Assembly: GCA_022616275.1 (NCBI GenBank)
Contig: JAKEFB010000114.1
Span: 1 to 64,000 of the forward strand
DNA length: 64,000 nucleotides
Source of the DNA: Chloroflexota bacterium
Lineage (GTDB): Bacteria > Chloroflexota > Anaerolineae > Promineifilales > Promineifilaceae
Direction of reading: 5' to 3'
The stretch's first letter is position 1; the number at the start of each line of letters is the position of its first letter. The notes under the pieces were generated by a model, which did no database searches, was not told where the DNA came from, and saw only the letters and a list, made by a program, of their open reading frames with translations. Below, in pieces: positions 3,944-29,557 of this stretch. The position numbers and the translations under genes are program-made.

Positions 3944-4303
3944 ATGGCGCAAAATTTCCTGCGGAGAAACAGTAACTCGCCCCTGGTCAACGTGGACAGC
4001 AACGAGCGGATGCTTTCTATGGTAGCCGGCGTGATGATGGCTCTCTACGGCTTGATTCGTCTGCCCTGGTCAGCGGTCATTGCCCTGGCGGCCGGCCTCT
4101 ACCTGCTTTACCGTGGCGTAACCGGGCACTGTTACCTGTATGAAACACTCAACGTGAACACGGCTGTTTCTCGACTGCCCAACCGGTCTTACGCCAGGGA
4201 TGATGGCGTTCCCCGTGTCGTCAAAGAAGACCCTGTGGCTGAAGCAAGCTGGGAGTCTTTCCCGGCCAGCGATCCACCGGCCTGGACAGGCAGCGAGGTT
4301 TAG
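3944..4303 (+). CDS. DUF2892 (YgaP-like transmembrane) protein
   Basis: 119 aa. Residues about 15-60 hold NVDSNERMLSMVAGVMMALYG and a second hydrophobic segment AVIALAAGLYLLYRGVTGHC, the two-helix DUF2892 inner-membrane domain with its closing Gly-His-Cys. The C-terminus DPVAEASWESFPASDPPAWT is a motif seen at the end of many such proteins. It sits 71 bases upstream of an SRPBCC gene and near a BON gene. These three families often co-occur in envelope stress clusters. The ATG is preceded by ATGAGGACGTTGA, a weak ribosome site. Function unknown. Confidence 0.8.
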   Translation: MAQNFLRRNSNSPLVNVDSNERMLSMVAGVMMALYGLIRLPWSAVIALAAGLYLLYRGVTGHCYLYETLNVNTAVSRLPNRSYARDDGVPRVVKEDPVAEASWESFPASDPPAWTGSEV

Positions 4304-4374
4304 AGTTAAAGGTGAGAGCTGGGGGTAAAGGAGGCTCTAACTTAAGACTCTAACTCTGTAATGCGGAGGAAAAG

Positions 4375-4833
4375 ATGACCCAACAAGTGACCAAAAGTAT
4401 TATCGTCAAGGGGGATATCTCCCACATTTATAGTTTATGGGCCAACTTTGAGAATTTCCCTAACTTTATGCGCTACATTAAGTCCGTCACCATTACTGGA
4501 CCAGGCACCAGCCACTGGGTTATGGACGGTCCGGCCGGTATGAACGTGGACTGGAACGCCGAGATGACGCGCGAGGAAAAGAATAAGCGGATTGCCTGGA
4601 ACAGCAAGGACCACAAAGGCATGATCACGACCAGTGGCCAGGTCACCTTCAATAGCCTGCCGCATAACGAGACCGAGGTAACGATCATGGTCAACTACAC
4701 GGTCCCGGCCGGTAAGGCCGGCGAATTCCTGGCTAACCTATTCAGCAATCCGGCCCACCGGTTGGAACAAGATTTGAAGAATTTCAAGGCTTACGCCGAG
4801 GGATTATACGAACGCCTTCCAGTCACAACTTAA
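4375..4833 (+). CDS. SRPBCC (START-like, cyclase/dehydrase) family protein
   Basis: 152 aa, SD CGGAGGAAAAG before the ATG. The pattern VTKSIIVKGDISHIYSLWAN, FENFPNFMRYIKSVT, W..DGPAGMNVDWNAEMTRE and a final amphipathic helix (FLANLFSNPAHRLEQDLKNF) matches the helix-grip SRPBCC fold of the cyclase/dehydrase group. Such proteins bind hydrophobic ligands; this subgroup has no proven substrate. The 71-base gap after the DUF2892 gene contains a small inverted repeat (AGAGTTA 4302-4308, TAACTCT about 4351-4357), so the two genes are probably co-transcribed. Confidence 0.8.
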   Translation: MTQQVTKSIIVKGDISHIYSLWANFENFPNFMRYIKSVTITGPGTSHWVMDGPAGMNVDWNAEMTREEKNKRIAWNSKDHKGMITTSGQVTFNSLPHNETEVTIMVNYTVPAGKAGEFLANLFSNPAHRLEQDLKNFKAYAEGLYERLPVTT

Positions 4834-5025
4834 CTCCCCTCGTTCACCAAGGGCCGACGTATAGAGCCGCCGGCTCGCCTGGCGCGTCCTGCTACTCCTC
4901 CTCCCTGGTCAGGCAGCCAGCGCTTCTCTACAGAGCCTTGGCAAATCGCCGGTTATACGGGTACACTCACCCCATCGCAGCCCGACTCGTGTAACCGGCT
5001 TTTTGCTTCCCCTTCTATAGTCCCT

Positions 5026-5262
5026 TCAGTGCGCACCACACGAACAGGAGCCGCAACCGCAACCATGCGAAGCCATCGGTACGGGGATCCGCTCTGCTGA
5101 AGCCTGCCCGCCGTTGCTTAACACGGCTACGGCCAGCAAGACCTTCCGGGCCTCCGGTTGGCCACAAACCGGGCAAGTTGCCGGCCGGTGGGCCTCGTCA
5201 AAAGAGCGGCGCTCCTCGAAAACTGTCTGGCAATCGGGGCAGCGAAAATCATATCGTGGCAT
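5026..5262 (-). CDS. FmdB-type zinc ribbon protein
   Basis: 78 aa. MPRYDFRCPDCQTVFEERR followed by ATCPVCGQP gives the CxxC...CxxC zinc ribbon of FmdB regulatory-like proteins. The C-terminus is Cys-rich (HGCGCGSCSCGAH), common in this family and possibly a second metal site. SD AGAGGAAAAG precedes the ATG. Role unknown; fmdB-like genes are usually annotated as putative regulators. Confidence 0.8.
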   Translation of the reverse strand: MPRYDFRCPDCQTVFEERRSFDEAHRPATCPVCGQPEARKVLLAVAVLSNGGQASAERIPVPMASHGCGCGSCSCGAH

Positions 5263-5448
5263 AAACTTTTCCTCTTGCTCTTGTTACTCCCCACTACTGT
5301 ACCAGATGCCTGGCCGGCGTACAACGTGGTAGTGGTAGGCAGCCTACTTTCTCCCTCTCTCGATTATGAGGTATAATCAAGTAATTGAGATGGTGAAACC
5401 ACAGAAGGCTGATAGCTAAAGCTGACAGCTACTGACGAGGAGCAAAAG

Positions 5449-5796
5449 GTGAGCACACTCTTTTCACAAACCTGGCCGGCCGGGCAGGATGGAGACGAGT
5501 CTGAATCAGAAACCAGTTCTGTTGCCGGGACGACCACGCCCGGCGGCAAGCAGGAGGTTCGCTGGCAGGTGGTGGCTGAAACGCCGGGTCTGGCAGGCGC
5601 TAACATTATCGCCGGCCGGCTGCAGGCCGAAGGGATTCCGGCCCGCGCCTGGCAGGAGAGCGCCGGCCAGGCTTTCGGCTTGATCGTCGGCATGTTGGGC
5701 GCCGGTTACGTCGAGGTCCCCGAGGCTTACGCCGAGCAGGCCGAGGCCCTTCTGGCCGAGACCCTGGACGACGCAGCCTTTGACGAAGAAGAGTGA
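5449..5796 (+). CDS. DUF2007-like (putative signal-transducing) protein
   Basis: 115 aa with a GTG start and SD GAGGAGCAAAAG. After a 40-residue acidic N-terminus, the segment RWQVVAETPGLAGANIIAGR, LQAEGIPARAW and YVEVPEAYAEQAEALLAE fits the DUF2007 fold, a small PII-like alpha/beta domain of unknown ligand. A TATAAT box lies at 5372-5377, but its -35 is poor. The leader holds short AGCT-rich repeats (5405-5430) resembling those before the penicillin-binding protein gene at 53.96 kb. Confidence 0.65.
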   Translation: MSTLFSQTWPAGQDGDESESETSSVAGTTTPGGKQEVRWQVVAETPGLAGANIIAGRLQAEGIPARAWQESAGQAFGLIVGMLGAGYVEVPEAYAEQAEALLAETLDDAAFDEEE

Positions 5797-5959
5797 CATT
5801 CGTCTAAAGCACTATTGTGGTTTGTCACTATGGTTTGACGCCCTAGAGACCTACAATTGGCTGGCAGAGAAAATAGACAGATAAATGAGAACGAAAGAAG
5901 GCGTTACTTTTAGAACCATCAAGCGACTACTTCACATGACACCTGGTAGAATTTTGGCC

Positions 5960-5989
5960 TTGCCAAAGTCTGGCACCTGACACTATGTA
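5960..5989 (+). promoter_or_regulatory. Candidate promoter of the ccm operon
   Basis: TTGCCA at 5960-5965 and TATGTA at 5984-5989 are 18 bases apart. Just before it is TTTGGC/GCCAAA (5953-5967), a short hairpin overlapping the -35. It is the best sigma70-like match ahead of ccmE, but the -10 is imperfect. Confidence 0.4.
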
Positions 5990-6005
5990 AGGAGAGTTGA
6001 CGATT

Positions 6006-6485
6006 ATGACCGAAGCGACCTGGACAAATCAAGAAGCTGTTCTGACCGAATCACGCCCCAACCGGATGAAGTTCGTCGTCGCCGGTGTATTGGTGCTGGC
6101 GGCCATTGTTTTTCTGGTCTTCAATGCCATGCAGAACAACACCCAGTTATACGTGACAGTCGGCGAGTTTTACGCCCAGCAGAGCAAATTTGCCGGCCGT
6201 GACTTGCGGGTTTCCGGTTGGGTGATGGGCGATTCGATCCAGTTTACCCAGATTGACGCCACGACCTCGCGCCTGGAATTCGACATCGTGGATGACATTG
6301 CCAACCCCGCCCAGCGGCTGCACGTCGTGGCCATGAATGAGCCGATGCCTGACCTGCTGCAGCACGAGGCCCAGGCCCTGGTGGAAGGCCACGCCGAGAA
6401 CGGGGCGTTCATGGCCAACCAGGGCGGCCTGTTCCTGAAATGCCCCACCCGTTATGAGGAGTTGGAACCGGGGACGACTGGCTGA
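6006..6485 (+). CDS. ccmE: Cytochrome c maturation protein CcmE, Cys-type
   Basis: 159 aa from ATG 6006, 11 bases after AAGGAG; a TTG at 5999 in the same frame is too close to that site. One N-terminal membrane helix (MKFVVAGVLVLAAIVFLVF) is followed by the periplasmic OB-fold domain. CcmE carries haem covalently from the CcmABCD exporter to the CcmFH ligase. Proteobacterial CcmE binds haem with His in HxxxY. Here the site reads CPTRY (Cys146, Tyr150), the CxxxY form known from archaea and some deltaproteobacteria. The gene heads the operon and is followed by a strong hairpin before ccmF. Confidence 0.9.
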   Translation: MTEATWTNQEAVLTESRPNRMKFVVAGVLVLAAIVFLVFNAMQNNTQLYVTVGEFYAQQSKFAGRDLRVSGWVMGDSIQFTQIDATTSRLEFDIVDDIANPAQRLHVVAMNEPMPDLLQHEAQALVEGHAENGAFMANQGGLFLKCPTRYEELEPGTTG

Positions 6486-6486
6486 G

Positions 6487-6520
6487 AGGTGACTGTCACT
6501 TTCGGAAGTGACAGTCGCCT
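6487..6520 (+). promoter_or_regulatory. Intercistronic hairpin between ccmE and ccmF
   Basis: Arms 6487-6501 and 6506-6520 pair over 15 bases (one G-T wobble) around loop TCGG. The stem ends 12 bases before the ccmF ATG and has no T-run, so it looks like an mRNA stability or processing element, or a translational control stem, rather than a terminator. Confidence 0.55.
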
Positions 6521-6532
6521 GAGGAAAAACAG

Positions 6533-8542
<2,010 letters not shown>

Positions 8543-21463: not shown

Positions 21464-24289
21464 CTACCGGTTTAGCCAGCGTAACGTTAGCTCCCCCACC
21501 CGGCCGGCGCGCTGGCGCAAAACGGTACACTCCGGCAGGGCGTCCAGGAACGCCTGGCCGTAGCGCTTGGTCAGCACCCGTTTGTCCAGGATGACCACTA
21601 CCCCCTGGTCGTCCTGGCGGCGGATCAGCCGGCCGAATCCCTGGCGGAAGCGCAGCACGGCCTCGGGGATGGCGTACTCCATGAAGGAGTTCTCGAACGT
21701 CTCCGAGCGGGCGGCAAAAATGGGGTCGGAAGGCACGTCGAAGGGCAGCTTGGCAATGACCACCGCCTGCAGGGCCATGCCGGGTACGTCCACCCCTTCC
21801 CAAAAGGAGCGGGTCCCCAGCAGCACCGCCCGGCTGTCCTCGGTCTTAAACTGGTCCAGCAAGTGTTGGCGCGAGCTGCCCTCTGTCTGGGCCAGGAGGC
21901 TAATCCCGGCCTCGGCCAGCGGCCGCTCGACAGCCTGGGCCGTCGTTAGCAGGTGGCCGTAGGAGGTAAAGAGGACCATCGTCCGGCCGCCCAGGGCCTG
22001 GGCCACCTCTACAATGGCTCCCTCGACGTATCGTTGGTAACCGGGCTGGTTCGGTTCGGGGATGTCGGTCGGCAGGTAGACCAGCGTCGTCGCCTGGTAA
22101 TCGAACGGTGAGCCAACGGCCAGCTCCTCACAATCTTGGGCGTGCAGCCGGTCGCGCAGGTAGCTAAAGGACGGCCGGCCGTTGTCCTGTGGGCCGGCCG
22201 TGCGCAGCGTGGCCGAGGTCAGGACGACCGTTTCCTTGGCCTGGAAAATGTACTTTTCCACCAACGGTCCAATGTGCAGCGGCGCGGCATGCAGAGAGAG
22301 GCGCTCCCGGTAGACCTCGGCCCAGTAAATAACTGTTTCGGCCGGCTGGGCCACCAGGGCGTCCAGGTTGATCCGCGCTTCCTCCAGGCTGCGGGCCAGG
22401 CTCAGGAGGGCCAGCCGCAATTCCTCGCCATCCTCAATGTCATACCCCTCGGACAGGTCGGCTAGGCCGCCGGCCAGCTTGCCAAAACCTTCGCCGATGG
22501 TTCGGAAATACCGTTCCAGGTTGTCCCAGCTCATGACCACCTGCTCAAAACCGGGCTGGCGGCGTAGCTCCGGCGTAAAGCGGATCTGCTCGGCATACTG
22601 GCTGCGCTTGTTGACCAGGGAATCCAGGAAAAAGGCCAGCGTGGTAAAAAAGTCGTCCAGCCGGAGGGTGGCCTGCTGGCCGGTCTCCCGCAGCCGGTTG
22701 GCATAGCCGTCTATGACGCTGCTCAGCTCGCCGGGCAGCGCGGCCGCTGCCCGGCGCTGCAAATCGGCCACCAGCCCGGCCCGGGGCTTGACCACTTCCT
22801 CCAGGATGCTCTCCAGGAAGCGCTTGTCGGCCCGGAAGCTCAACCCCTCGGTCACGGCCGATTCCAGGTGATGGGCCTCGTCCACAACCAGGTCCAGGTA
22901 CTCTGGCAGCACCCGGTTGTCGGAGGCGATGTCGGCCAGCAGCAGGGCGTGGTTGACGACCAGGATGTGGGCCTGCTCGGCCCGGCGGCGGGCGATGTGT
23001 AGCGGGCAATTCTCTTGGGCGCAACGGTCCATCGTGCAGGCGTCATTCTCGGCGCTCAGCCGGCCCCAGGCCAGCCGCTCGCCCGGCGTACGCAGGTTGA
23101 CTTCGGCCAGGTCGCCGCTGGCCGAATAGGGCAGCCAGGCCAGGATCCGGGCGTAGAGGGCCATCTCGTCGGCGCTGTTGGGGCCGCTGTGGCGCATCTG
23201 CTGGAACAGACGGGTGCAGAGGTAGTTGCGCTTCCCCTTGAGCACGGCCGCCCGCAGTTCAAAAGGCAAAATGTTTTGCAGGTCGGGCAGGTCTTTGTGC
23301 AGGAGCTGGTCCTGGAGGTTGATAGTGTTGGTCGAGATAACGACACGCCGGCCGTTCTCGTTGGCCCAGAAGGCGGCCGGCAACAGGTAGCCAATACTCT
23401 TGCCGGTTCCCGTCCCGGCCTCGACAATAAGCTGCTGGCCCTCGTTGAACGCGTTGGCCACGGCCTGGGACATCTCCACTTGCTGCGGCCGGTGCTCAAA
23501 GCCGGGGAAGAGGCGGCTGAAATTCCCACCCGGCCGGAGCATGGCGCTAATGGCCTTTACGTCAATGGATTCCGTATCCTGGGCGGCAATCAGCGGGCGG
23601 CCGAGCACTTTTTCTGGTTTGAACAATTTGTCCAACTGCCCCCTGGCCCGGCCAAAGGCTTGCTTGCCGGCTGCTCGCAGCGCCTCTTCAAAAAAGATCG
23701 TCTCCGGCCAGCCAAGGTTGTTGCCGGCCCGGACAATTTCATCCAGGATGTCAAAATCCAGTCCCACGGCCCGCTGGTAGAGGGCCAGGAAAAGCGCGGT
23801 CGTCCGGTGAGCGTCATTCAGAGCGCGGTGGGCGGCCTTGGAGGAAGCCTCCTGGGTTCGGCGATCTTCCCGGCCGGGCAACTCCAATAAGGTGGCCAGG
23901 GCATCCAGGCCATAGCGGCCGGCGGTAGGCAGCAGGATGGAGGCCAGGGTGAGGGTGTCTACGCGGTGCTGGGCCACGCCCAGGTTTTCGGCCCGCAAAA
24001 AGCCCAGGTCAAAGCCGACGTTGTGGCCAACCAGAACGTGGTCGCCCAGAATACGCTTCAGGCGTGGCCGGAGGGTAGCCATGCCGGGGGCGCCGTCTAC
24101 CATCTCCTGGGTGATGCCCGTCAGATGGGTGATGGCCGCCGGCACCGCCCGGCGCGGGTTCACCAGTGACGACCACTCGTCCACAATCTGGCCGTCCCGG
24201 AAAGTGACGGCCGCCACCTCGATAATGACGTCGTAGTCCGGGTCCAGGCCGGTCGTCTCCACGTCAACGGCAACGTAGGTAGGAATCAT
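21464..24289 (-). CDS. dinG: DnaQ-type exonuclease fused to DinG-like helicase
   Basis: 941 aa. Residues 1-170 are a DEDD exonuclease (YVAVDVETTGLDPDYD, LVGHNVGFDLGFLRAEN, HRALNDAHRTTALF). The helicase follows: Walker A EAGTGTGKSIGYLLPA near 289 and DEAHHLESAV near 469. Cysteines near 357 (YLCTRLF) and 416 (DACTMDRCAQENCPL) fit an XPD-type iron-sulfur cluster. The C-terminal half has LLGTRSFWEGVDVPG and FRQGFGRLIRRQDD. This is the Firmicute/Chloroflexota form of DinG, used in DNA repair and R-loop or replication-fork processing. Confidence 0.92.
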   Translation of the reverse strand: MIPTYVAVDVETTGLDPDYDVIIEVAAVTFRDGQIVDEWSSLVNPRRAVPAAITHLTGITQEMVDGAPGMATLRPRLKRILGDHVLVGHNVGFDLGFLRAENLGVAQHRVDTLTLASILLPTAGRYGLDALATLLELPGREDRRTQEASSKAAHRALNDAHRTTALFLALYQRAVGLDFDILDEIVRAGNNLGWPETIFFEEALRAAGKQAFGRARGQLDKLFKPEKVLGRPLIAAQDTESIDVKAISAMLRPGGNFSRLFPGFEHRPQQVEMSQAVANAFNEGQQLIVEAGTGTGKSIGYLLPAAFWANENGRRVVISTNTINLQDQLLHKDLPDLQNILPFELRAAVLKGKRNYLCTRLFQQMRHSGPNSADEMALYARILAWLPYSASGDLAEVNLRTPGERLAWGRLSAENDACTMDRCAQENCPLHIARRRAEQAHILVVNHALLLADIASDNRVLPEYLDLVVDEAHHLESAVTEGLSFRADKRFLESILEEVVKPRAGLVADLQRRAAAALPGELSSVIDGYANRLRETGQQATLRLDDFFTTLAFFLDSLVNKRSQYAEQIRFTPELRRQPGFEQVVMSWDNLERYFRTIGEGFGKLAGGLADLSEGYDIEDGEELRLALLSLARSLEEARINLDALVAQPAETVIYWAEVYRERLSLHAAPLHIGPLVEKYIFQAKETVVLTSATLRTAGPQDNGRPSFSYLRDRLHAQDCEELAVGSPFDYQATTLVYLPTDIPEPNQPGYQRYVEGAIVEVAQALGGRTMVLFTSYGHLLTTAQAVERPLAEAGISLLAQTEGSSRQHLLDQFKTEDSRAVLLGTRSFWEGVDVPGMALQAVVIAKLPFDVPSDPIFAARSETFENSFMEYAIPEAVLRFRQGFGRLIRRQDDQGVVVILDKRVLTKRYGQAFLDALPECTVLRQRAGRVGELTLRWLNR

Positions 24290-24396: not shown

Positions 24397-26769
24397 CTAA
24401 AGGAGGGCCAGGACTTCTTCCCCGGCTTGCAGCTTCAGGAGGGTGTAAGACTTGGTGGAATTTTCACTATCGAGGGGCAACCGGCCGCTCTCTACCGGGG
24501 CCAGTTGCTGGGGGGTCACGACCCAGGTCGGTCTATCCGGCTCCACCCTGGCCATCCCCCGGACGTCGCGGCGGGCGATCATCACCCGGCCGCGAGAGTT
24601 GGCTTTTGGCGCGCTGGGAACCCAGGCGGCGGGCAGGCGCCGGCCGTAACCATCGGCCGTAACCAGCACAATTTCGTCGTCCGCCTCGGCCAGTAAGGCA
24701 CCAATGACCCGTTCGCCTTCGCGGCGGTTAATAGCCTGGAGTCCTTGCAACGGCAGATCCCCCACCCGGATGCGGACGGCCCGGCCGGTGTCCAGCATGA
24801 CCACCAGCTCGTCGTCTGGGCTGGCCCCCAGCGCCGCCACCGGCAGACCGGGCAGCGGCCGGTCAAATTTCAGCGCCGCCGGCCCCTCAATGCTCTCCAC
24901 CAGCCCCTCCAGCGGATAGGAGCGGGCAAAACCGCGCGTCGTCACCAGGAGCAGCCGGGATTGCTGTTTCATGGCCGCCCAATGGCCGAAGGCGCAGATG
25001 TGCTCGTCGGCCTTGAGGTGGTAGAAGTCGGCCGCCGTCAGCCCCATGGCCTGCAACTCCAGCAGGTGGCGCGGTGTGGTCAGCAGGAAGCGGTACTGCG
25101 AAGTCACCAGCAGCAGCGGCTCGTCCGGGGCCATGACCAGGGCGTCTTGCAGCTCCGTGCCGTTCCCCGGCCTCTGTTCGGCCAGGGAAACGGGCTGCTC
25201 TTCGGCCAGGGAGTGGCCAGCAAACAGGCTGGCCAGCAGCCGGTTGTTGCGGGTCAGTAGAATGAGGGCCTGCTCCTGGCCGGGTGCTTCTCCGGCGGCC
25301 TGCTCTTCCTGGGCGGCCATCCGCCGCTGCAGCAGTTCCAGGTTGACCGGGGCCACTCTGGGGGGGGCCACCGGCCGTTCGGGGTGGACCAGCTCGGCCG
25401 GGGTGTGGACCTCAGCCTCCATCTCGCCGGCGGCAATGCCGTGGGCGATAATGCCCAGACCGGAGGTGACGCTGCTGAAGGCGTCCACGGCCATGACCTT
25501 TTCCCGGCCGAACTTTTCCATGAGCATGTACTTGAAAGCCGGAATCTGGGCCGAGCCGCCGGTGCGGACCACGGCGTCAATCTGCCCGATCGGCAGGCCG
25601 GAGTCGCGGACGACTTCGTCCAGGTGCTGGTCAATGGCCTGGATCTCCGCGCGGATAATCTGCTCAAACTCGCTGCGGGTGATCATCTCGGTGACGTGGA
25701 AGCCGGGGCCGTCCAAACGTAGGACGGTGGCCATGTCGTCCGACAGTCGGCGCTTGGCTGCCTCAACGGTGTCAAACATTTGCAGGCCGTAGTTGTTGGT
25801 CACCAGGCTGAGCAGGGCGTTGATACCGCGCCGGTCTTCGGCCGTCTGGGCGATTTCGTTGAGCAGCTTGCGGCTGTCCGGCGTTTGCAGCTCGATAATC
25901 CGCTGCCAGTCGGCAAAAACGTCAAAAATCCACTTGGGTAGCGGCAATCGCCGCTGGCGCGGGCCGTAGCGGCTACCCTCGCCGAAATGCTTGGGCAGCT
26001 TGGCCCGGACCAGCTTCCGGTCAAAGACGTCGCCGGCTACGGGGATACCGCCGGTGGCCAGCACCTCCCGTCCGCGCCGGCCGCCCAGGCGCATGACGGT
26101 AATGTCCAGCGTACCGCCGCCGAAGTCGAAGACGAGGATGTTTTGCGGCCGGTCCACGGTGGCGGCGTAATGGTAAGCGGCGGCAATCGGCTCGTACTGC
26201 AAATAGACCTGCTCGTAGCCGGCGCGGAAAGCGGCGTCGAGCAGCCGGTGTTGGGCCAGGGCGTCGCCTTTGGGGTCGGCGGCAAAGTGGACTGGCCGGC
26301 CCAGGACGACCTGGCGCAGCTTCCGGCCCAGCAGCCGCTCAACCCGAATTTTGGTCAGGCTCAGGTAAGTGGCCACCAGGTTCTCCAGCGAGTAGTAGAA
26401 CTGGCTGACCACCGTGCCCTGGTACTCGGCGTCGCGCAGGCCGGTCTTGATGGACAGGAACAGCCGGCCCGGCGAGAGCACGTCCACCCAGGCGTACACG
26501 TCGGTGACGTAGTACATGTCGGCCCCATAGACCTCGACCTCGCCCACCCAGACCCGCTGCATTTTTGACGGGCGGCCGGTGTTTTGGGCGAAGTAGCGGT
26601 TGACAGCCTCGCGGCCGATGGTCACCGTCTGGTCGTTGGTCACGTACAGCGCGGTGCGGGCCACGTGGGGGTTGGCGTTGGCCGGGTCCAGGGGGAGCAG
26701 TTGCACCTGGCGGCCGTCGTAAACGGCCATGCCGGAGTTGGTGGTGCCAAAGTCCATTCCCACAATCAC
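24397..26769 (-). CDS. Hsp70-family ATPase fused to a GyrA C-terminal-like beta-pinwheel
   Basis: 790 aa from GTG 26769, which follows AAAGGAGG by 9 bases; the longer open frame has no such site. Residues 1-470 are an Hsp70/YegD-like actin-fold ATPase: VIVGMDFGTTNSGMAVYDG, ILVFDFGGGTLDITVMRLGG and VVRTGGSAQIPAFKYMLMEK. The usual substrate-binding domain is absent. Residues about 500-790 instead show about six repeats of the type DEIVLVTADGYGRRLPAAWV, DDELVVMLDTGRAVRIRVGD and SRLLLVTTRGFARSYPLEGL, which resemble the blades of the DNA-wrapping GyrA C-terminal domain. Hsp70 identity is sure; the pinwheel is inferred by motif. Confidence 0.8.
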   Translation of the reverse strand: MIVGMDFGTTNSGMAVYDGRQVQLLPLDPANANPHVARTALYVTNDQTVTIGREAVNRYFAQNTGRPSKMQRVWVGEVEVYGADMYYVTDVYAWVDVLSPGRLFLSIKTGLRDAEYQGTVVSQFYYSLENLVATYLSLTKIRVERLLGRKLRQVVLGRPVHFAADPKGDALAQHRLLDAAFRAGYEQVYLQYEPIAAAYHYAATVDRPQNILVFDFGGGTLDITVMRLGGRRGREVLATGGIPVAGDVFDRKLVRAKLPKHFGEGSRYGPRQRRLPLPKWIFDVFADWQRIIELQTPDSRKLLNEIAQTAEDRRGINALLSLVTNNYGLQMFDTVEAAKRRLSDDMATVLRLDGPGFHVTEMITRSEFEQIIRAEIQAIDQHLDEVVRDSGLPIGQIDAVVRTGGSAQIPAFKYMLMEKFGREKVMAVDAFSSVTSGLGIIAHGIAAGEMEAEVHTPAELVHPERPVAPPRVAPVNLELLQRRMAAQEEQAAGEAPGQEQALILLTRNNRLLASLFAGHSLAEEQPVSLAEQRPGNGTELQDALVMAPDEPLLLVTSQYRFLLTTPRHLLELQAMGLTAADFYHLKADEHICAFGHWAAMKQQSRLLLVTTRGFARSYPLEGLVESIEGPAALKFDRPLPGLPVAALGASPDDELVVMLDTGRAVRIRVGDLPLQGLQAINRREGERVIGALLAEADDEIVLVTADGYGRRLPAAWVPSAPKANSRGRVMIARRDVRGMARVEPDRPTWVVTPQQLAPVESGRLPLDSENSTKSYTLLKLQAGEEVLALL

Positions 26770-28138: not shown

Positions 28139-28191
28139 AGTAACCAGCGCCGGTTTTTGATTGAAAACGGGGTGTGAGGGATACGAAGCTC

Positions 28192-29208
28192 ATGAATGGG
28201 GAACAGGATAACCAGGTAGCCACGTCGAGCCGGTTGTACCGGCTGCTGGACCAGCATTTTGACCGGGAGCAGTTGAAGTTATTGGCCTACGACCTGGGCT
28301 ACGACTATGACAACCTGAGCGGCGAGCGGAAGCTTAACAAGGCCCAGGACCTGGTGGCCCAGATGGAGCGTAAGGGCCAGCTAGAGCACCTCATCCGCAC
28401 CGCCCGGCATTACCGGCCATCCGTCGCCTGGCCCGGCTCCAGGCCACCATCTGCCACACCAACAGCAGAACCATCACTCCCACCCGGGCCCCCCTTCGCC
28501 AATCCCTTCGGCCGCACCGGCCGGGTTGAAGACCCGGCTTACTACCTAGTCCGCCGGCCGCTGACGGACGAGATCATGGGTGAGCTGGTCAAGGGAGTCA
28601 GCCTGTCCATCGTCGGCGAGTCGCAAACGGGCAAGTCGTCGTTACTGTGGCACATTAAGACAGCCGGGCCGGCGGCGCTGAACCGGCCGCCGGCGGACTT
28701 TGTTTATATCAGCCTGGAACTGGTCCACAGTGAAGATGATTTCTTCGAACATATTTGCTATGAGTTGGGTGTGCCCACCGGCCGCGGCTACCGACTAGCC
28801 CGCTCCTTGAAGGGGCGCCAGGTGGTTTTTTGCCTGGACGAGGTGGAAAAGATGACGTGGTACGGCTTTAGCCTGGAGGTCCGCAGCGAGCTACGCGGTC
28901 TGGCCGACGGAAGCAACGCACCCTTGACCCTGGTCATTGCCAGTCGCTCCCCCCTCGGCCGTCTTTTCCCCGACAGCCCAGAGCTAACCTCGCCTTTGGC
29001 CGGTCTATGTTCACAGATCCAACTAGCAAACTTCACGCTGGCAGAAGCTAAAGCCCTGGTCGAGTGGCAACTGCGGGGCAGCGGCCTGGTTTTCCCGCCG
29101 GCCGAAGTCGAGCAGGCCTGGCAGCGCTCCGGCGGCCACCCGGCCCGGTTGCAGCAGGCGTTGAAAGAGTCCTTCAACGCCTGGTTGCGGCGGGGATTGG
29201 GGGATTAG
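28192..29208 (+). CDS. P-loop ATPase with N-terminal effector-associated (Death-like) domain
   Basis: 338 aa from ATG 28192 (GTG 28174 is an alternative; neither has a strong ribosome site). Residues about 10-75 (LYRLLDQHFDREQLKLLAYD, LGYDYDNLSGERKLNKAQDL, VAQMERKGQLEHLI) resemble the small helical effector-associated domains of bacterial conflict systems. After a Pro-rich linker comes a STAND-like ATPase: Walker A SIVGESQTGKSSLLWHI near 140, Walker B VVFCLDEVEKM near 210 and sensor segment LVIASRSPLG. There is no C-terminal repeat sensor. It heads a cluster with DUF433 and a large membrane ATPase, 40 bases and 0 bases apart. A defence or signalling role is inferred. Confidence 0.7.
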   Translation: MNGEQDNQVATSSRLYRLLDQHFDREQLKLLAYDLGYDYDNLSGERKLNKAQDLVAQMERKGQLEHLIRTARHYRPSVAWPGSRPPSATPTAEPSLPPGPPFANPFGRTGRVEDPAYYLVRRPLTDEIMGELVKGVSLSIVGESQTGKSSLLWHIKTAGPAALNRPPADFVYISLELVHSEDDFFEHICYELGVPTGRGYRLARSLKGRQVVFCLDEVEKMTWYGFSLEVRSELRGLADGSNAPLTLVIASRSPLGRLFPDSPELTSPLAGLCSQIQLANFTLAEAKALVEWQLRGSGLVFPPAEVEQAWQRSGGHPARLQQALKESFNAWLRRGLGD

Positions 29209-29248
29209 GGGATAGTGTTTGATAAAATGCGACCAGGAGACAGTAGAG

Positions 29249-29557
29249 ATGGCTGATCCTATGAAGTACTCTTCCATCCTCCAGGTTCCGGGCGTTTGCG
29301 GCGGCCGGCCAATCATTGCAGGCACACGGATGTCGGTCAAAGCAATCGTCGGCTGGACGCGGCTGGGGCTGACGCCGGAAGAGATTATTGACGAGTACCC
29401 CCAGCTTTCAGCCGCCCAGGTGGCCGACGCCCTGGCTTACTATACCGATCACCCTGAGGAAATTGAAGCGGAGTTCGCCGAAGAAAAACGTTACCTTAAA
29501 ATTGAATTTCCTCGACTCCAGGCAATGATTGCCGCCCAACGCCAACAACAGGACTGA
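29249..29557 (+). CDS. DUF433 (VapB45-like antitoxin) protein
   Basis: 102 aa from ATG 29249 with AGGAGA 9 bases upstream. VCGGRPIIAGTRMSVKAIVG followed by TPEEIIDEYPQLSAAQVADA is the DUF433 helix-turn-helix. DUF433 is usually the antitoxin beside a PIN-like DUF5615 toxin, but no such toxin is present. Its stop overlaps the start of the membrane ATPase gene (TGATG), so the two are translationally linked. Confidence 0.8.
   Translation: MADPMKYSSILQVPGVCGGRPIIAGTRMSVKAIVGWTRLGLTPEEIIDEYPQLSAAQVADALAYYTDHPEEIEAEFAEEKRYLKIEFPRLQAMIAAQRQQQD

Follow-up and report, generated by a model that had tools for sequence, protein, structure and literature searches.

The gene at 24397..26769 on the minus strand of the window, a stretch of 64,000 nucleotides from a Chloroflexota bacterium, encodes a protein of 790 amino acids (GTG start, stop codon included in the coordinates) in which an Hsp70-type ATPase is fused to a GyrA-type beta-pinwheel. 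This combination, which an earlier note had read from the DNA, is confirmed, and the identity of both halves is supported by profile searches, predicted fold and family-wide conservation. The results suggest that in a group of Chloroflexota a chaperone-type ATPase, joined to or adjoining a gyrase-related ring-shaped domain, forms an ATP-driven module. In the accessible parts of the open-licence literature searched, no description of the fusion or of the corresponding gene pair was found.

The ATPase domain (residues 1-447; 25429..26769, minus strand, as are all features of the gene) matches Pfam HSP70 (PF00012) with an E-value of 5e-29 and 101 bits, against a cut-off of 20.6. The phosphate-1 motif GMDFGTTNSG (residues 4-13; 26731..26760), the phosphate-2 motif FDFGGGTLD (residues 214-222; 26104..26130) and the adenosine motif RTGGS (residues 402-406; 25552..25566) were located in the alignment of the fusions, in agreement with the Hsp70/YegD-type ATPase originally described. 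Catalytic residues, given in DnaK numbering (D8, T11, K70, E171, D194 and T199), were read from an alignment of 28 fusions to which two DnaK-like ORFs from the window's genome had been added. All of these but K70, together with the adenosine glycine, are conserved in 28/28 fusions; the K70 column holds lysine in 21 and arginine in 7, and as an invariant lysine (K108) lies close to it the arginine is perhaps a misalignment. PF06723 (MreB/actin-like) reaches 47.8 bits, above its own cut-off and far below the HSP70 score. At E 1e-15, relatives of the ATPase are present in 65/298 genomes of the class, many of them in frames of about 440-540 residues and others of about 600.

The top NCBIfam match is YegD of E. 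coli (PRK11678/NF008673; E 2.8e-46), which was termed a presumed Hsp70 chaperone in the available text of a 2026 paper (PMC13232886). Both proteins are ATPases that lack a canonical substrate-binding domain, but the YegD profile is 450 long while the fusion adds about 290 pinwheel residues, and its score of 158.3 bits lies under the equivalog cut-off of 331. DnaK shares the ATPase motifs and catalytic residues with the fusion and differs in what follows them: a motif search of the 790 amino acids did not detect the VLLLD interdomain linker, and neither Pfam nor the predicted fold revealed a canonical substrate-binding domain. Instead, a linker (residues 448-498; 25276..25428) with a short helix at about 477-492 leads to the pinwheel; this helix bears Arg483, whose position is arginine in 26/26 fusions.

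Residues from about 499 to 790 (24400..25275) are predicted to form a six-bladed pinwheel like those of the GyrA and ParC C-terminal domains (CTDs), and the PDB relatives found for it are all subunits of type IIA topoisomerases. The proposal that such a domain replaces the substrate-binding domain is thereby upheld by family profile, predicted fold and conservation. With the single sequence the GyrA repeat (PF03989) remained near background, at 19 bits against the curated cut-off of 27, which on its own is the very outcome that the earlier note had named as contradicting its reading, but this is overturned by the match of the family profile and by the predicted fold. The fusion relative L197 exceeds the cut-off (29.4 bits), and two NCBIfam gyrA models match inside residues 549-720 of the window's protein (2.8e-7 and 2.6e-6). 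Y559, R560, F561, W597, R616, Q678, N724 and R733 are invariant in the fusion pinwheels. Four Pfam families were found in the protein at E up to 10, and the catalytic breakage-reunion domain is not among them. The host genome has two GyrA/ParC-type genes (G000:C216 and G000:C180, the latter with weaker repeat scores) and a stand-alone GyrA-CTD-like protein (G000:C209:140485-141444; L110 4468-5538, minus strand). Other such proteins are found at L243-L250, L252, L255, L256 and L259, in frames of about 350-440 codons without a topoisomerase part; a box-like pattern (QRRGGMG) is present in 6/13, the host genome's included, and box position 562 is arginine in 13/13.

The host assembly is an 8.53-Mb bin in 309 contigs with an estimated contamination of 5.5%, which could favour a chance fusion or an assembly artefact, but this explanation is practically refuted by the occurrence of the same architecture in other genomes of the family and in named genomes. 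Matches at E 1e-20 or better are present in 44/53 genomes of the window's family, host genome included, and in 36/53 there is one stop-free match extending from residue 18 or before to 666 or beyond (that of the window itself, 34 with identities of 51-62% and one with an identity of 32%). The reading frame is open throughout in the 28 extracted fusions, one of which comes from a genome in 3 contigs (G033). These 28 of 30 extracted loci make up the fusion alignment (the incomplete L034 and L035 were left out); the C-terminal alignment A1 omits L018 and L021, and A2 consists of 22 of the 28 fusions.

The fusion is also found in named genomes, on whose contigs a single-protein query matched nothing and an alignment query gave 552 relatives. 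The best 80 of these were analysed, and counts are thus biased toward sequences similar to that of the window. By label, all belong to Chloroflexota or its subgroups except L213 (Bacteroidetes), L229 (Patescibacteria) and L230 (Magnetospirillum). The ATPase is followed by the pinwheel in a single frame at 20 of the best 80 loci (L151-L160, L163-L169, L197, L217 and L219), and at 20 a lone ATPase has a pinwheel gene immediately upstream on the same strand. Neither arrangement is visible at 37, four of them with less than 500 bp of upstream sequence (L188, L208, L209 and L228), and at three (L161, L162 and L222) the contig ends before a pinwheel could be seen.

The upstream pinwheels are encoded in frames of about 360-470 codons, and 19 of the 20 form one phmmer cluster situated 5-117 bp ahead of the ATPase match; at L171, the twentieth, the pinwheel occupies 4095-5297 and the ATPase frame 5324-6739. 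The Pfam GyrA repeat model matches just 6/19 of these proteins at E 0.1. Their profile (A3), compared with that of the fusion C-termini (A1), gives a probability of 99 and an E-value of 4e-18, and it matches GyrA in the PDB at 2.1e-25. The AlphaFold2 model of the L175 upstream protein (pLDDT 84.1, pTM 0.72) has helices at residues 3-76 and six blades, and its top 20 Foldseek matches all belong to GyrA or topoisomerase IV A. Strong matches to A3 (at 1e-49 or better) are present in 12/298 genomes of the class, and the ATPase in 12/12 of these against 65/298 overall; the hypergeometric value of 5e-9 ignores relatedness and the construction of A3, whose members were chosen for lying upstream of an ATPase gene, which makes part of the co-occurrence inherent. 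The two lie 33-207 bp apart in nine of the 12 genomes, 1.3 kb apart in one and on separate contigs in two. At 1e-40, A3 matches 5 of 400 genomes of the phylum, all five from the window's class. The adjacent same-strand genes, mostly from Anaerolineae, form a putative operon with the pinwheel, preceded by an N-terminal coiled coil, first and the ATPase second. Since the order in the fusion is the reverse, loss of a stop codon does not explain it. No defence model was matched by P0001 at E 0.01; two weak matches of one gene-pair pinwheel to Cas models (E 0.0018 and 0.0046) are likely due to chance and were dismissed.

The ATPase tree has 76 rows; L165, L171, L196, L222 and L225, five of the best 80 loci, were left out, and L161 and L162, whose contigs stop before a pinwheel would be visible, are called fused by kinship. 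A main fusion clade of 19 rows (support 100/100) and a second clade of 20 rows, 17 being gene pairs (99/98), are sisters with support of 97/96, or 90/86 in a smaller tree of 35 rows. The second fusion lineage (L197, L217 and L219) groups with the 600-residue forms with weak support (91/94). The placement of all fusions in one ATPase clade was rejected (AU p 0.00018, 35 of the 76 rows). In the pinwheel tree of 68 selected rows the pinwheels of both fusion lineages unite (100/100) on long branches, apart from those of the gene pairs; in a smaller tree of 34 selected rows fusion and gene-pair pinwheels come together, unsupported (44/50), and with these 34 rows neither a common origin of those two nor the grouping of gene-pair with stand-alone pinwheels (p 0.34) was rejected. 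The two fusion lineages are distant by the ATPase tree yet together by the pinwheel tree, which might be due to an early fusion that was later lost in places, to swapping of domains or to long-branch attraction. On a branch with the same ATPase another C-terminal domain of about 150 residues was observed (L202, L205, L208, L209, L212, L213, L215, L218 and L220), and no Pfam match was found in it for L209 and L218, the two scanned. It looks as if the ATPase might take interchangeable effectors.

Whether the pinwheel binds DNA can be judged from residues characterized in gyrase. According to the available text of two papers, changes of R612, R667, R712, R766 or R817 in Salmonella GyrA weaken or abolish DNA binding (PMC7210945), and the GyrA box is needed for bending and wrapping but not for binding itself (PMC3510516). 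We mapped the rim positions to E. coli 1zi0, where one offset of ten makes all five arginine; at this offset Salmonella R716 corresponds to cysteine and R556 to glutamate. The degenerate pattern of the box, QRRGGKG, matches 21/29 extracted GyrA ORFs, 0/26 fusion domains and 0/19 gene-pair pinwheels, and its absence from the window's protein had been stated correctly. The 21 Chloroflexota GyrAs used for comparison were chosen by a box-like motif, which makes the comparison circular at the box positions and not at the others. In the MAFFT alignment K/R occurs at 612, 667, 712, 766 and 817 in 21, 20, 21, 21 and 21 of the 21 GyrAs, whereas the counts for the 26 fusions are 5, 0, 0 (a gap), 23 and 4 and those for the 19 gene-pair pinwheels 0, 0, 0, 3 and 2; at 615 the counts are 21/21, 0/26 and 2/19, respectively. 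With HMMER at least 3 of the 26 fusions have K/R at 612, and 10, 18, 23 and 4 have it at the other four positions. The rim arginines are thus incomplete in the fusions: blades 2 and 6 have mostly lost theirs, the result for blades 3 and 4 varies with the alignment used, and blade 5 retains lysine. The basic loop of blade 5 (K722 to R734; 24568..24606) is the sole rim site that clearly keeps a GyrA-like charge. Compared with the GyrA CTD (1suu, 1zi0 and 9gbv), the pinwheel is boxless, has lost most rim arginines and is carried by an Hsp70 ATPase instead of a topoisomerase core.

From the absence of the box pattern and the loss of most rim arginines it follows that gyrase-like wrapping by the fusion pinwheel is unlikely, and the suggestion of the earlier note that a chaperone ATPase works on DNA or a topoisomerase is not supported. 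It is nevertheless possible that DNA is contacted through blades 4-5. An ATP-regulated nucleoid or DNA-binding factor, whose pinwheel would bind DNA, perhaps by the loops of these blades, and whose ATPase would control loading or release, is rather unlikely, since the rim losses weigh against it in fusions and gene pairs alike; it draws on the topoisomerase kinship of the fold, on the dispensability of the box for binding and on basic residues kept in the fusions at 766 and at 705 (22/26, MAFFT) and, with HMMER, at 712 and 667. Mean net charge (-0.5 for the fusion domain and +0.5 for GyrA domains) does not discriminate DNA binding. In the C-terminal alignment 16 conserved K/R columns against 10 conserved D/E columns are compatible with a role with nucleic acid.

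The kinship of the pinwheel with the GyrA CTD, and the presence of two GyrA/ParC-type genes in the genome, would also suit a protein dedicated to gyrase or topoisomerase IV as chaperone or regulator, whose pinwheel would imitate the GyrA CTD and either compete for the contacts of that domain or guard them. This is improbable, because a GyrA/ParC-like cluster occurs in just 3/58 neighbourhoods and because the ATPase, with its 65/298 genomes of the class, is far sparser than GyrA-type matches (369/400 genomes of the phylum). We likewise give little credence to an unusual but otherwise ordinary folding chaperone with the pinwheel in the role of the peptide-binding domain: the conserved catalytic residues agree with it, but the linker and the canonical substrate-binding domain are missing, DnaK-like ORFs are present elsewhere in the genome, and, as had been noted before, neither dnaJ nor grpE flanks the gene. 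The two flanking genes encode a DinG-like helicase that also carries an exonuclease domain of the RNase T type (21464-24289, on the minus strand like the fusion gene and 107 bp downstream of it) and a nitrilase-type carbon-nitrogen hydrolase, and the two adjoin the fusion gene in 1/40 fetched loci (G046), several of which have short flanks. Once ATPase and pinwheel are set aside, the most widespread ORF cluster is present in 12/58 neighbourhoods, so the module seems self-contained and the surroundings give no hint of a partner. Also in the window are a gene for a protein, possibly part of a biological-conflict system, with EAD7 (an effector-associated domain) and AAA (28174-29208, plus strand; nSTAND1 below cut-off) and then a DUF433 gene (29219-29557, plus strand).

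Taken with about even confidence, the reading we prefer is a two-part ATP-switched module, composed of a YegD-like Hsp70 ATPase and a dedicated GyrA-type pinwheel effector, that would gate access of a partner. Conserved ATPase residues, fold and descent of the pinwheel, their recurrent pairing and the loss of rim arginines argue for it; the K/R-rich conserved columns, the 37 of the best 80 loci with neither arrangement and the arginine in the K70 column argue against it. It is known that the beta-domain of Hsp70 docks onto the ATPase and undocks from it. Similarly, the ATPase, being without a peptide-binding domain, would act as an actin-fold nucleotide switch, and the pinwheel, in one chain behind the ATPase in the window's lineage and encoded in a gene pair elsewhere, would be its dedicated effector. 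We infer that ATP binding and hydrolysis alter the hold of the ATPase on a pinwheel docked to it, and that the nucleotide state would thereby gate the access of the partner to a conserved pinwheel surface. This partner is more likely a protein than wrapped DNA, by analogy with the ParC CTD bound to MukB (PDB 4mn4), with the difference that ParC belongs to topoisomerase IV and the fusion has no topoisomerase part. A further and more doubtful proposal is that a gyrase-derived pinwheel was recruited, possibly repeatedly, as an ATP-gated effector of Hsp70, in a machine that would remodel nucleoid- or topoisomerase-associated complexes and not unfolded peptides.

To our knowledge no client has been assigned to YegD-type Hsp70 ATPases. 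The conserved partner, fused or adjacent, offers experimenters a defined effector domain of a well-studied fold, and the role of an Hsp70 without a substrate-binding domain thus becomes testable. The finding also means that the GyrA pinwheel occurs outside topoisomerases, with its DNA-binding rim largely rebuilt. If the ATP-gated, gyrase-derived effector proves true, these Chloroflexota proteins would represent a new class of Hsp70 machine.
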